NCBI RefSeq assembly: GCF_013337685.1
Contig: NZ_SUQN01000009.1
Coordinates: forward strand, 1 to 64,000
Reading direction: 5' to 3'
Length of the DNA stretch: 64,000 nt
Origin: Citrobacter gillenii
GTDB taxonomy: Bacteria; Pseudomonadota; Gammaproteobacteria; Enterobacterales; Enterobacteriaceae
Program-made: the position numbers and the translations under genes
Notes under the pieces: generated by a model
Database searches by the model: none
What the model was told of the DNA's origin: nothing
What the model saw: the letters and a program-made list of their open reading frames with translations, nothing else
Part shown: in pieces, positions 20,923 through 24,793 of the stretch
How positions within the stretch are numbered: the stretch's first letter is position 1
Layout: each line of letters opens with the position of its first letter

Positions 20923-22272
20923 TTACTCAAACAAATTATGATGCAGTTTCTGTACGACCTGCTCGGCTTCGCTGCCCGGCACCAGGAAGCACAGATTATG
21001 GCTGGATGCGCCGTAGCAAATCATGCGGATGTTGAACGGTTCCAGCACGCCGAACACCTCTTTTCCCACGCCGCAGGCTTTAGACAGGTCGTTCCCGATC
21101 AGGGCGACCAATGCCAGACCTTCTTCTACCTCGACCCGGCACAGCGCGGACAGCTCCATCAGCAGGGATTGCGTGAGCAGTGTATCGCCGGTGGACGTTG
21201 AACCGGTGGTATCCAGCGTCAGTGCGACGCTGACTTCTGAGGTTGTTATCAAATCCACCGAGATATTGTGGCGCGCCAGGATGCCGAACACTTCCGCTAA
21301 AAACCCGCGAGAATGCAGCATATTCAGGCTATGCAGCGTCAGCAGCGTTTGCTTGCGACGCAGCGCCAGGGCACGAAATAGCGGTGGATTCTCGGTTTTA
21401 TTACACACCAGCGTGCCACCCGCTTTGGGGTCTTTGCTGGAGCCGACAAACACCGGAATATCGCTACGCACGGCAGGGAGCAGCGTTGCCGGGTGCAGGA
21501 CTTTTGCGCCGAAGGTCGCCAGTTCTGCGGCCTCTTCAAAGGCAATTTCATCAATGCGTTTTGCGGCTGGCACCACGCGCGGGTCGGTCGTGTAAATGCC
21601 CGGTACATCGGTCCAGATATCGACGCGTGCGGCGTGCAGGGCTTCTGCCAGCAAGGCGGCGGTATAGTCGCTGCCGCCGCGCCCCAGTGTGGTAGTGCGG
21701 CCTTTGCTTTCGCTGCCGATAAAGCCCTGGGTGATCACCAGACCTTCTTCAAGGCGCGGTGCCAGCTGCAACGTGGCCAGTTCAGCCAGCGCCACGACAT
21801 CCGGTTCTGCGCGACCAAAACGATCGTTGGTACGCATCACTTTACGCACGTCAAACCACTGCGCCTGAACGTTACGCTCGCGCAGGATTTCGACAAACAG
21901 CAGGGTGGACATCAGTTCACCGTGGCTGACCAGTTCGTCAGTCAGCGCGGTTGAGGTCGCCAGCGAAGCCGCTTCCGCCAGCGTGGTGATATTTTCCAGC
22001 AGACGTTCGATCTCTTCGCGTATCACGTTTGGATAACGCAAACGCTCCAGAATATCGAACTGGATCTGACGAATAGCGTCGAGTTTCTCGAAGCGTTCAG
22101 TTGCCTCCAGTCCTTCAGCCAAAGCGACCAACAGGTTAGTAATACCCGCTGAAGCGGAAAGCACCACTAAACGGACGTTAGCATCGGAAAGCACCACATC
22201 AGCGCTGCGGTTCATGGCGTCGAAATCCGCGACGCTGGTACCGCCAAACTTGGAGACAACTACATCAGTCAT
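20923..22272 (-). CDS. lysC: Lysine-sensitive aspartokinase III
   Basis: LysC phosphorylates aspartate, the entry step to lysine, threonine and methionine. At 449 residues it equals E. coli LysC. The kinase domain begins VVSKFGGTSVADF and holds TTTLGRGGSDYTA (about 195-208). The C-terminal ACT domains include the lysine-sensing SVDLITTSEVSVALTLDTT region, unchanged from wild-type E. coli, so allosteric inhibition by lysine should be intact. A gagg ribosome-binding site precedes the ATG. The E. coli lysine riboswitch expected in the leader is not found: an ERIC element is there instead (22351-22477). Confidence 0.97.
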   Translation of the reverse strand: MTDVVVSKFGGTSVADFDAMNRSADVVLSDANVRLVVLSASAGITNLLVALAEGLEATERFEKLDAIRQIQFDILERLRYPNVIREEIERLLENITTLAEAASLATSTALTDELVSHGELMSTLLFVEILRERNVQAQWFDVRKVMRTNDRFGRAEPDVVALAELATLQLAPRLEEGLVITQGFIGSESKGRTTTLGRGGSDYTAALLAEALHAARVDIWTDVPGIYTTDPRVVPAAKRIDEIAFEEAAELATFGAKVLHPATLLPAVRSDIPVFVGSSKDPKAGGTLVCNKTENPPLFRALALRRKQTLLTLHSLNMLHSRGFLAEVFGILARHNISVDLITTSEVSVALTLDTTGSTSTGDTLLTQSLLMELSALCRVEVEEGLALVALIGNDLSKACGVGKEVFGVLEPFNIRMICYGASSHNLCFLVPGSEAEQVVQKLHHNLFE

Positions 22273-22350
22273 AACTACCTCGTGTCAGGGAATGAATAGA
22301 GCGACCATGGCACAAGGGCAGAACGGAAACCGGTGCAGGCGCAAATACCG

Positions 22351-22477
22351 TATTACATTTCGTCCTTCAATCTGCCTCTTCGTTGGCTGCACCTGCTCAC
22401 CACAGTCACTTACTTCAGTAAGCTCCTGTGGCGAGCAGGTTTGCCGCCTTGACGCATATCGAATGACTTTATGTATA
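22351..22477. repeat. ERIC (IRU) element inside the lysC leader
   Basis: A 127-bp element with ERIC hallmarks: terminal inverted repeats (tattacattt left; atgtata right), cttcgttggctgc, the central tcacttacttcagtaagctcctg, and ttgccgccttgacgc. It lies between the likely lysC -10 box and the conserved 3' part of the lysC leader, so it forms most of the lysC 5' UTR. Confidence 0.92.
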
Positions 22478-22506
22478 TAAATAAAAGGCATGGCCTGTAC
22501 TGTCAA
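22478..22506 (-). promoter_or_regulatory. Probable lysC promoter at the ERIC edge
   Basis: Read on the minus strand: TTGACA (22506-22501), a 17-base spacer and TATTTA (22483-22478). The -10 box abuts the ERIC terminus at 22477, so the transcript would start within the first bases of the repeat. Confidence 0.65.
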
Positions 22507-22676
22507 TGCTGGGATTATGCGGATTTTTCATGCTGCTGTAGCCCTGAGTAACCGAGCTTATAATTACCCCTGTTTGATGGACGCCAGGACAACGGCACTA
22601 AAACAATCACACTTTTCTGTGACTGGCGTTACAATCGATCTCAGTCACAATTCTCAAAATCAGAAGAGTATTGCTA

Positions 22677-24323
22677 ATGAAAAACATCAATCCAACGCAG
22701 ACCTCAGCCTGGCAGGCACTACAAAAACACTTTGAAGAGATGAAAGACGTTACGATCGCGGACTTGTTCGCGAAAGATAGCGATCGTTTCGCCAAGTTTT
22801 CCGCAACGTTTGACGATTTGATGCTGGTGGATTTTTCCAAAAACCGCATCACCGAAGAAACGCTGGCGAAACTGCAGGATCTGGCAAAAGAGACCGACCT
22901 GAGCGGTGCTATCAAGTCCATGTTCTCCGGTGAGAAGATCAACCGTACGGAAGATCGTGCAGTGCTGCATGTGGCGCTGCGCAACCGTAGCAATACCCCG
23001 ATCATCGTGGACGGCAAAGATGTGATGCCGGAAGTGAATGCGGTGCTGGAGAAGATGAAATCCTTCTCTGAAGCGATTATCTCCGGCAGCTGGAAAGGCT
23101 ACACCGGCAAAGCGATTACGGATGTGGTGAACATCGGTATCGGTGGCTCCGACCTCGGTCCGTTCATGGTGACCGAAGCGCTGCGTCCGTACAAAAATCA
23201 CCTGAATATGCACTTTGTGTCTAACGTCGATGGTACGCACATCGCCGAAGTACTGAAGAAAGTGAACCCGGAAACCACGCTGTTCCTGGTCGCCTCTAAA
23301 ACCTTCACCACCCAGGAAACCATGACCAACGCCCATAGCGCGCGCGACTGGTTCCTGGCGACCGCCGGTGATGAAAAACACGTGGCAAAACACTTCGCGG
23401 CGCTGTCCACCAATGCGAAAGCAGTCGGTGAGTTCGGTATCGATACGGCCAACATGTTCGAGTTCTGGGACTGGGTTGGCGGTCGTTATTCCCTGTGGTC
23501 AGCGATTGGTCTGTCGATCATCCTGTCCGTGGGCTACGACAACTTCGTTGAACTGCTGTCCGGCGCGCACGCCATGGATAAACATTTCTCCACTACCCCA
23601 GCGGAGAAAAACCTGCCGGTACTGCTGGCGCTGATCGGTATCTGGTACAACAACTTCTATGGTGCCGAAACCGAAGCCATTCTGCCGTACGACCAGTATA
23701 TGCACCGCTTTGCGGCCTACTTCCAGCAGGGCAACATGGAATCCAACGGTAAATACGTTGACCGTAACGGCAATGCGGTGGATTACCAGACTGGCCCAAT
23801 CATCTGGGGTGAGCCGGGGACCAACGGTCAGCATGCGTTCTATCAGCTGATCCACCAGGGGACCAAAATGGTGCCGTGCGATTTCATCGCTCCGGCTATC
23901 ACGCATAACCCGCTGTCTGACCACCATCCGAAGCTGCTGTCTAACTTCTTCGCCCAGACCGAAGCGCTGGCGTTTGGCAAGTCTCGTGAAGTGGTTGAAC
24001 AAGAATACCGCGACCAGGGTAAAGATCCGGCGACGCTGGACCACGTTGTGCCGTTCAAAGTATTCGAAGGCAACCGTCCTACGAACTCTATCCTGCTGCG
24101 CGAAATCACTCCGTACAGCCTGGGTGCGTTGATTGCGCTGTATGAGCATAAAATCTTTACTCAGGGCGTTATCCTGAACATCTTCACCTTCGACCAGTGG
24201 GGCGTAGAGCTGGGCAAACAGCTGGCGAACCGCATTCTGCCTGAGTTGAACGATGATCAAGAGATCAACAGTCATGATTGCTCGACTAACGGTTTGATTA
24301 ACCGTTATAAGTCCTGGCGTTAA
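22677..24323 (+). CDS. pgi: Glucose-6-phosphate isomerase
   Basis: Pgi interconverts glucose 6-phosphate and fructose 6-phosphate. The 548-residue product has both family signatures: the sugar-phosphate pocket [14 protein letters not shown] and [11 protein letters not shown], the FDWVGGRYS-type motif ([13 protein letters not shown]), and near the C-terminus [16 protein letters not shown]. The catalytic Glu ([14 protein letters not shown]) and His are present. It ends YKSWR, one glycine shorter than the E. coli WRG end, because the stop TAA is the first three bases of an ERIC element. The start is ATG 22677; the promoter region is conserved with E. coli. It diverges from lysC. Confidence 0.97.
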
Positions 24324-24449
24324 TCAGCTTCTTCCTTCGAACCGCAGCGGTGTTGGCTGCGTTCGTTAACCCCGGTCACATAGTAATCTATGCTCCCGGG
24401 GATTAACGGGCTTGCCGCCTTGCTGCAATTCGAATGAATTTACTGATTA
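24321..24449. repeat. ERIC (IRU) element at the 3' end of pgi
   Basis: A 129-bp element bounded by inverted taatcag (24321) and ctgatta (24449). It contains ggtgttggctgc, the accccggtcac/ctcccgggga central arms and cttgccgccttgctgcaattcgaatga. Its first three bases are the pgi stop codon. Confidence 0.92.
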
Positions 24450-24455
24450 CTTATA

Positions 24456-24487
24456 AAAAAAGCCGATATTATTATCGGCTTTTTTTA
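24456..24487. terminator. Terminator after pgi (bidirectional form)
   Basis: An 8-bp stem (agccgata 24461-24468, tatcggct 24473-24480) is preceded by an A-run and followed by seven Ts. Confidence 0.85.
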
Positions 24488-24793
24488 TAAGATAATTTAT
24501 CTTGTCTTCCGCATTACATGGGATTTAATTGAGTTTAATCCTAAAATAATTATACCACGTTAGATTTAACACAATGATTTTCAGATTTTACGGATATTGC
24601 ATTATTTATGTATTTATTTCATGTGATTGATTTATATTGATTTATGTATTTTTTAATAATGTTAGCTCCCACTTTTTTCTAATTATCCTAAATTCCTGCG
24701 CGGCGTAATTTACACACTTTCGGTTGTGTATACTCGATCTCGCCCGAAATTCTTTTGGGTAAATCTCCATTCATACAATGAAGGGATATTGTG
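24488..24793 (+). other. AT-rich upstream region of yjbE
   Basis: About 300 bases without a gene. It should hold the yjbEFGH promoter and possibly an RcsB site, as this operon is Rcs-controlled in E. coli, but I cannot point to a convincing RcsB box. A purine-rich ribosome-binding site (aaggga) precedes yjbE. Confidence 0.5.

Follow-up and report, generated by a model that had tools for sequence, protein, structure and literature searches.

Was the lysine riboswitch of an enterobacterial lysC gene displaced by a repeat element, or was it lost by another route? The question is raised by a 64,000-nt window of Citrobacter gillenii DNA (the whole stretch analyzed here), in which lysC, encoding the 449-residue lysine-sensitive aspartokinase III (20923–22272, minus strand), is divergent from pgi (start at 22677, plus strand) across a gap of 404 bp. 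The lysC assignment follows from the open reading frame, the relatives retrieved with lysC and the annotated lysC of E. coli. An earlier note on this DNA, written from the sequence, had stated that the lysC leader of E. coli carries a riboswitch, which the annotated riboswitch in the leader of E. coli locus L031 bears out. The note went on to propose that an ERIC repeat had replaced the riboswitch in the window, leaving lysine control to LysC allostery and to the folded repeat.

No match to the lysine riboswitch (Rfam RF00168) at the gathering score was found anywhere in the window; the sole Rfam match at that score was STnc430 (24449–24608, minus strand, 87.2 bits), which lies just beyond pgi. 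A scan of the lysC leader with the riboswitch model, suggested in the note, was run over 22000–23000 and gave no match up to E = 10. The same held up to E = 10 for the whole genome to which the window belongs; an identical whole-genome search picked up the E. coli riboswitch. Outside the repeat, about 80 nt separate the promoter from the start codon, a space into which the ~180-nt aptamer would not fit. The statement that no aptamer is left in the lysC leader thus stands for leader, window and genome alike. A remnant aptamer in the window leader was also considered and rejected on the lack of any match up to E = 10; a degenerate stretch of this kind was seen, by eye, in L072 only.

The promoter is retained. 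Since a generic consensus promoter scan of the window did not include the lysC promoter in its list, conservation was taken as the basis for its placement. The −35 element TTGACA (22501–22506, minus strand) and the −10 element TATTTA (22478–22483, minus strand) lie as the note had described them, in a TTGACA-17-TATTTA pattern that is present in 61/61 riboswitch-free rows and 40/42 riboswitch rows (several genomes being counted twice, as named and second copies), with its register kept across related loci. The ERIC element begins at 22477, the base following the −10 element, and does abut the promoter. With a predicted start ~7 nt past the −10 element, the predicted lysC leader is ~198 nt long, and its first ~120 nt are ERIC. 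The remainder (22273–22352, minus strand) is, by alignments and the leader tree, an old short leader homologous to the 3′ part of the E. coli leader with the aptamer missing, and the alignments confirm that its 3′ end, ccctgacacgaggtagtt, is common to the window and E. coli. Within it, GGTCGC (22301–22306, minus strand) is diagnostic of the riboswitch-free leader: GGTC[GA]C occurs in 44/44 short leaders and 0/42 riboswitch leaders, with GGYTGA in 42/42 riboswitch leaders. The identical ERIC-in-leader arrangement is found in a second genome of the window's species (L113), which speaks against an assembly error.

The repeat itself was delimited by nhmmer and BLAST relatives, with its ends set from six compared copies. 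The repeat family is called ERIC on the strength of the consensus rather than a library match. It is a multicopy family, with 24 matches in its own genome to a 501-bp query; among the own-genome matches listed, the locus itself aside, only the ERIC part is covered, at 73–86% identity. The window element is related to multicopy ~127-bp repeats, and its transcript is palindromic with a long stem. The earlier note was thus right that an ERIC is present, but its extent, given as a canonical 127 bp at 22351–22477, is 125 nt at 22353–22477 (minus strand) by the six-copy comparison; 127 bp is the ERIC length stated in a review (PMC2229807). TA stands on both sides of the element, and the ERIC-free site, TTTATTTATAAATACGG, is off by 1–2 bases from a clean TA duplication. 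The copies at this site differ in one arm: in the window's species (L112 and L113) the left arm, CCTGCTCGCCACAG, is a nearly exact complement of the right arm, and in the other four (L114–L117) it reads CCTGAGAATCCACAG. Templated palindrome correction is the likely source of the near-perfect complementarity.

Repeats were also seen near lysC at other loci. L042 bears a different ERIC between the two genes, on the pgi side of the promoter, as does L128, a further genome of the genus, which reads like L042. Six Kosakonia and Franconibacter-like loci (L053, L054, L059, L061, L073 and L078) carry ERIC-like repeats ahead of lysC, between one and three each; in L053 they lie between promoter and aptamer. 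At L090 (Cedecea sulfonylureivorans), an ERIC-like repeat at ~1731–1859 comes immediately after a shortened match to the lysine riboswitch (1563–1723, 67.6 bits); placed by eye in the P5 region of the aptamer, this repeat lies within the riboswitch, unlike that of the window. The lysC leader seems to attract repeats.

Whether the repeat had displaced the riboswitch was decided by the relatives. At a cut-off of E 0.001, the riboswitch is matched in none of the 17 genomes of the genus (the window's own is one of them), yet ERIC occupies the lysC leader site in 6/17 and is missing there from 11/17. ERIC-free Citrobacter leaders read TTTATTTATAAATACGGTATTTGC followed by the same 3′ end, with a predicted length of roughly 70–90 nt. 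The leader comparison over Citrobacter, Salmonella and Escherichia that the note had suggested was made with Salmonella-like genomes, and the riboswitch-free short leader proved common to all three, in Escherichia at some loci only; without a leader ERIC it occurs in five Salmonella-like genomes, Enterobacter, Lelliottia and three Escherichia loci. Because leaders free of both riboswitch and ERIC occur in 11/17 genomes of the genus and in other genera, the sequences place the loss first and the ERIC later, and the proposed replacement does not hold.

In the wider sample, the named lysC loci are the best 80 of 368 relatives; 20/40 and 21/40 of their genomes have the riboswitch, and all 41 matches lie within 700 nt upstream of lysC. 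The 39/80 named-locus genomes that lack it comprise 34 with the short leader, four of an Atlantibacter type and L072, which has a degenerate aptamer remnant in its riboswitch-free leader. The Atlantibacter-type loci (L085, L087, L088 and L105) bear a distinct leader, GCATTCCC...GGGAATCACACGAGG; L105 is titled Citrobacter freundii, yet its lysC groups with Atlantibacter. L047, on a contig titled Chryseobacterium sp., has an enterobacterial lysC with the riboswitch, and its assembly is probably mislabelled or mixed. A further set gave the riboswitch in 28/56 other family genomes, several of the negative ones being 0.5–2 Mb only, and in 25/47 other order genomes. InvR, which we take to be a Salmonella-specific RNA and on which the five genomes are called Salmonella-like, was found in 5/392 genomes of the family, which belong to a single genus; each of the five has the short leader at lysC, and these lysC loci gave no Rfam match that reached the gathering score. 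The riboswitch was matched in 5375/5426 E. coli genomes, and since any match to the lysC region was likewise limited to 5375, the remaining 51 are uninformative. Three loci with the short leader and no riboswitch match are named Escherichia sp. E1V33, E. coli E69 and E. coli SCPM-O-B-8794; they stand as separate species in a one-genome-per-species collection and, we infer, are not E. coli proper.

The spacing of the loci follows the leader types. The distance from the −35 element to lysC is 106–151 nt where neither riboswitch nor leader ERIC is present (106–124 nt in ERIC-free Citrobacter), 234–242 nt in ERIC-bearing leaders and at least 333 nt at riboswitch loci; L072, with its remnant, measures 216 nt. 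The pgi-lysC intergenic region is mostly 293–374 nt long without the riboswitch and at least 514 nt with it.

The history of the leader was compared with that of the gene. With the aptamer excluded, the promoter and 50 nt of the 3′ leader placed the 44 short leaders in one clade (100/100), which was recovered in 100% of 200 bootstrap trees. This leader tree was built from 153 columns and 88/91 rows, leaving out L085, L087 and L088, which have no 3′ motif; the position of L105 in it is meaningless, its 3′ piece having been drawn from inside pgi. On the lysC coding tree of 91 rows, the riboswitch label needs 11 changes, at least six of them forced by starred branches. The lysC tree rejected a short-leader clade (delta lnL 478, p-AU 2e-142), the tested group being defined by leader state and not by a tree; this shows that the history of lysC is not that of one clade and does not indicate the process behind it. 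The lysC trees are unrooted because no lysC start was found in five order-level outgroup loci.

A segment scan localized the discordance. The label changes nine times on the pgi side (250–1200 nt upstream of the −35 element, a stretch made up largely of pgi) and six times within the 100 nt preceding the −35 element; the promoter needs three changes, the 3′ leader one, and the thirds of lysC 8, 8 and 10, for 82/91 rows (five other riboswitch-free leaders and four loci without pgi adjoining lysC being dropped). Poorly resolved short segments would be expected to give more label changes, not fewer. Both the trees and the scan set the history of the leader at odds with that of the flanking genes; the comparison is one of gene trees, and lysC and pgi may themselves have recombined. 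As the short leaders form one clade in the leader tree and are mixed in the lysC tree, the simplest reading is a single riboswitch-free cassette exchanged between lineages, presumably by recombination, with independent deletion followed by convergence as the main rival.

The ERIC-bearing leader hints at a similar history. At the site, ERIC copies are 96–99% identical in 7/15 pairs (equal-length pairs), and in three of those seven lysC is just 87–88% identical; exchange of the ERIC-bearing leader between Citrobacter lineages is therefore probable. The 17-genome Citrobacter lysC tree requires four changes of the ERIC label, two of which starred branches force, and its clustering was equalled in about 100 of 500 shuffles (about a fifth). 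This scatter fits exchange, but repeated insertion or loss as well.

If the riboswitch is gone, what carries lysine control? RNAalifold applied to 31 of the 44 short leaders yielded a predicted hairpin covering the Shine-Dalgarno sequence, in which the arm CACGAGG (22278–22284, minus strand), invariant or nearly so in the 31 aligned leaders, pairs in the consensus with CCUUGUG (22311–22317, minus strand). Of its 11 pairs, seven are invariant and none shows a compensatory change. The idea of a novel structured switch within the short leader was rejected, this hairpin without covariation being all that was obtained, and five short leaders folded singly were not clearly better than their shuffles (z 0.91 to −1.44). 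Also rejected was a leader peptide noticed by eye, ATGGTCGCT..., because its start codon is missing or its frame shifted in other genera. The ERIC forms a separate strong predicted hairpin, whose removal leaves the predicted 3′ fold as it was. The note's suggestion that the folded ERIC contributes to lysine control found no support: the element is predicted to fold on its own, with the Shine-Dalgarno region unchanged, and most relatives have no ERIC there.

Upstream of the promoter, a conserved box may point to control of initiation. T-N11-A is the form of LysR-type regulator sites, and ATGAAAAATCCGCAT (22517–22531, minus strand), which has this form, is a candidate site for such a regulator, e.g. 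ArgP. Lying 25 nt upstream of the −35 element, it is found with at most three mismatches in 88/91 rows, riboswitch or not, and is the most conserved stretch upstream of the −35 element; the best matches in 1820 random upstream stretches had 5–10 mismatches, one perfect match excepted. Two further observations make ArgP the candidate regulator: i) argP is present in the same genome (TIGR03298, 371.7 bits against a cut-off of 273.55), and ii) ArgP stimulates lysC, among other genes, in E. coli, and lysine prevents the stimulation (PMC12925634). With a candidate box, argP and known ArgP control in E. coli, initiation control plus LysC allostery may suffice, and lysine control in the window's species probably rests on these two.

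Taken together, a two-step history emerges, which we consider probable as a whole: one ancient loss, exchange of the resulting cassette and a later ERIC insertion. An ancestor within the Enterobacteriaceae would have lost the ~220-nt lysine aptamer from its lysC leader, while the promoter, the box ahead of it and the final ~80 nt, which contain the ribosome-binding hairpin, stayed in place. This riboswitch-free promoter-leader cassette would then have persisted and passed between lineages by recombination, which would explain why the riboswitch varies between related genera and even among Escherichia lineages. Later, in some Citrobacter, an ERIC would have entered at the −10/start site, becoming the first ~120 nt of the transcript, and the ERIC-bearing leader itself would have been exchanged between Citrobacter lineages. 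lysC would now be transcribed from the old promoter without lysine-dependent switching in the leader, lysine feedback being left to allosteric inhibition of LysC, probably with ArgP at the promoter. The ERIC would fold as an independent 5′ hairpin, nearly neutral and at most altering mRNA stability. The sequence comparison itself shows the missing riboswitch, the conserved promoter, the sequence of loss and insertion, and a one-clade leader beside a mixed lysC tree; recombination as the route, the lost lysine response, the part played by ArgP and the near-neutrality of the ERIC are inferred.

Four other explanations were weighed against this history. That the ERIC inserted into the riboswitch, or mediated its deletion, and took its place is suggested by its position in the window, where it occupies the aptamer's place between promoter and 3′ leader. 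The sister loci L120 and L121, ERIC-free and likewise riboswitch-free, stand with the 11/17 genomes of the genus and the ERIC-free short leaders of Salmonella-like genomes, Enterobacter and Escherichia against it; the ERIC as the cause of the loss was rejected on relatives free of both elements, and we regard this explanation as very improbable. Many independent aptamer deletions, each with the same adaptation of the 3′ leader, could give the short-leader clade without exchange. Separate losses do exist (L072 and the four Atlantibacter-type leaders), and TGCGC repeats, seen by eye to flank the aptamer in several riboswitch leaders, could favour deletion; shared constraint after aptamer loss could likewise pull short leaders together in a tree, and the perfect split between GGTCGC and GGCTGA could have followed from the loss for functional reasons. 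Yet all 44 short leaders share GGTC[GA]C, the TGCGCCTGCACC block recurs in most of those aligned, the promoter groups the short leaders too (three changes, against 8–10 in the flanking genes), and the independent losses that can be recognized look different. Independent deletion is thus a rather unlikely account of the clade.

The remaining two explanations concern function. The ERIC hairpin might have been co-opted in the window's lineage to regulate the stability or translation of lysC mRNA; this explanation draws on the ERIC-bearing leader folding far better than its shuffles (z −5.85), on arms that are almost perfectly complementary in the window's species, and on Yersinia, where ERIC RNA affects mRNA stability via RNase E in an orientation-dependent manner, according to the review (PMC2229807). 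By analogy with Yersinia, a role of the ERIC in lysC mRNA stability is possible. The z-score may, however, reflect just the palindrome of the ERIC itself, the ribosome-binding region has the same predicted fold without it and the site is ERIC-free in most of the genus; we give co-option little credence. A diverged or unrecognized lysine-sensing RNA might instead persist in the short leader, in which the blocks TGCGCCTGCACC, TTGTGCC and CCCTGACACGAGG are strongly conserved. Such a sensor would have to fit into roughly 70–90 nt, far under the 182 positions of the model, and the window gives no match to E = 10, nor do the short leaders show covariation or a clear folding excess, which makes it very improbable.

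The two-step history, with its exchanged cassette, has a wider corollary that we favour by a small margin over its negation: riboswitch control of lysC in the Enterobacteriaceae would be an exchangeable trait, with two cassette alleles, one with the riboswitch and one without, moving between genera by recombination in the pgi-lysC region. If so, species could gain or lose metabolite sensing in a single step with the gene unchanged. Each exchange may have run in either direction, and the riboswitch of E. coli may have been kept or regained; on this corollary, even E. coli and E. albertii may owe theirs to a later regain. The E. coli lysC riboswitch has been studied intensively and proposed as a drug target. 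With the riboswitch missing from 39/80 named-locus genomes and five Salmonella-like loci and present in 5375/5426 E. coli genomes, the family offers a natural experiment, in which closely similar promoters and aspartokinases of one genus occur both with the aptamer and lacking it, and the contribution of the riboswitch beyond LysC allostery and ArgP could be tested directly.

ERIC elements, riboswitch loss and the exchange of regulatory regions are known kinds of event; here the presence of a well-known riboswitch appears to follow an exchangeable leader allele. The literature, searched in part, yielded no statement that the lysC of Citrobacter or Salmonella lacks the riboswitch, and such a statement may therefore well be in print. 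One study describes the lysC riboswitch system as well conserved in the Enterobacteriales and notes eight species without any lysine riboswitch (PMC5584792); here whole groups of Enterobacteriaceae are without the lysC riboswitch. The tabulated riboswitches of pathogens in another article have no lysine heading (PMC9495176). Compared with the E. coli leader and its riboswitch (RF00168), the window agrees in gene, promoter, Shine-Dalgarno region and the end of the 3′ leader; it lacks the ~200-nt aptamer, and its predicted leader reaches ~198 nt owing to the ERIC. The repeat resembles the enterobacterial ERIC/IRU/RU-1 elements in its ~125 bp, palindromic, multicopy and intergenic nature and TA ends. 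What sets the window copy apart is its place directly at the −10/start site, where it forms the 5′ end of the predicted leader of a biosynthetic gene. Finally, as in what PMC9944727 terms horizontal regulatory transfer, the exchange of intergenic regulatory alleles, the history of a regulatory segment differs here from that of its flanking genes; unlike such transfer in general, the alleles differ by a whole riboswitch.
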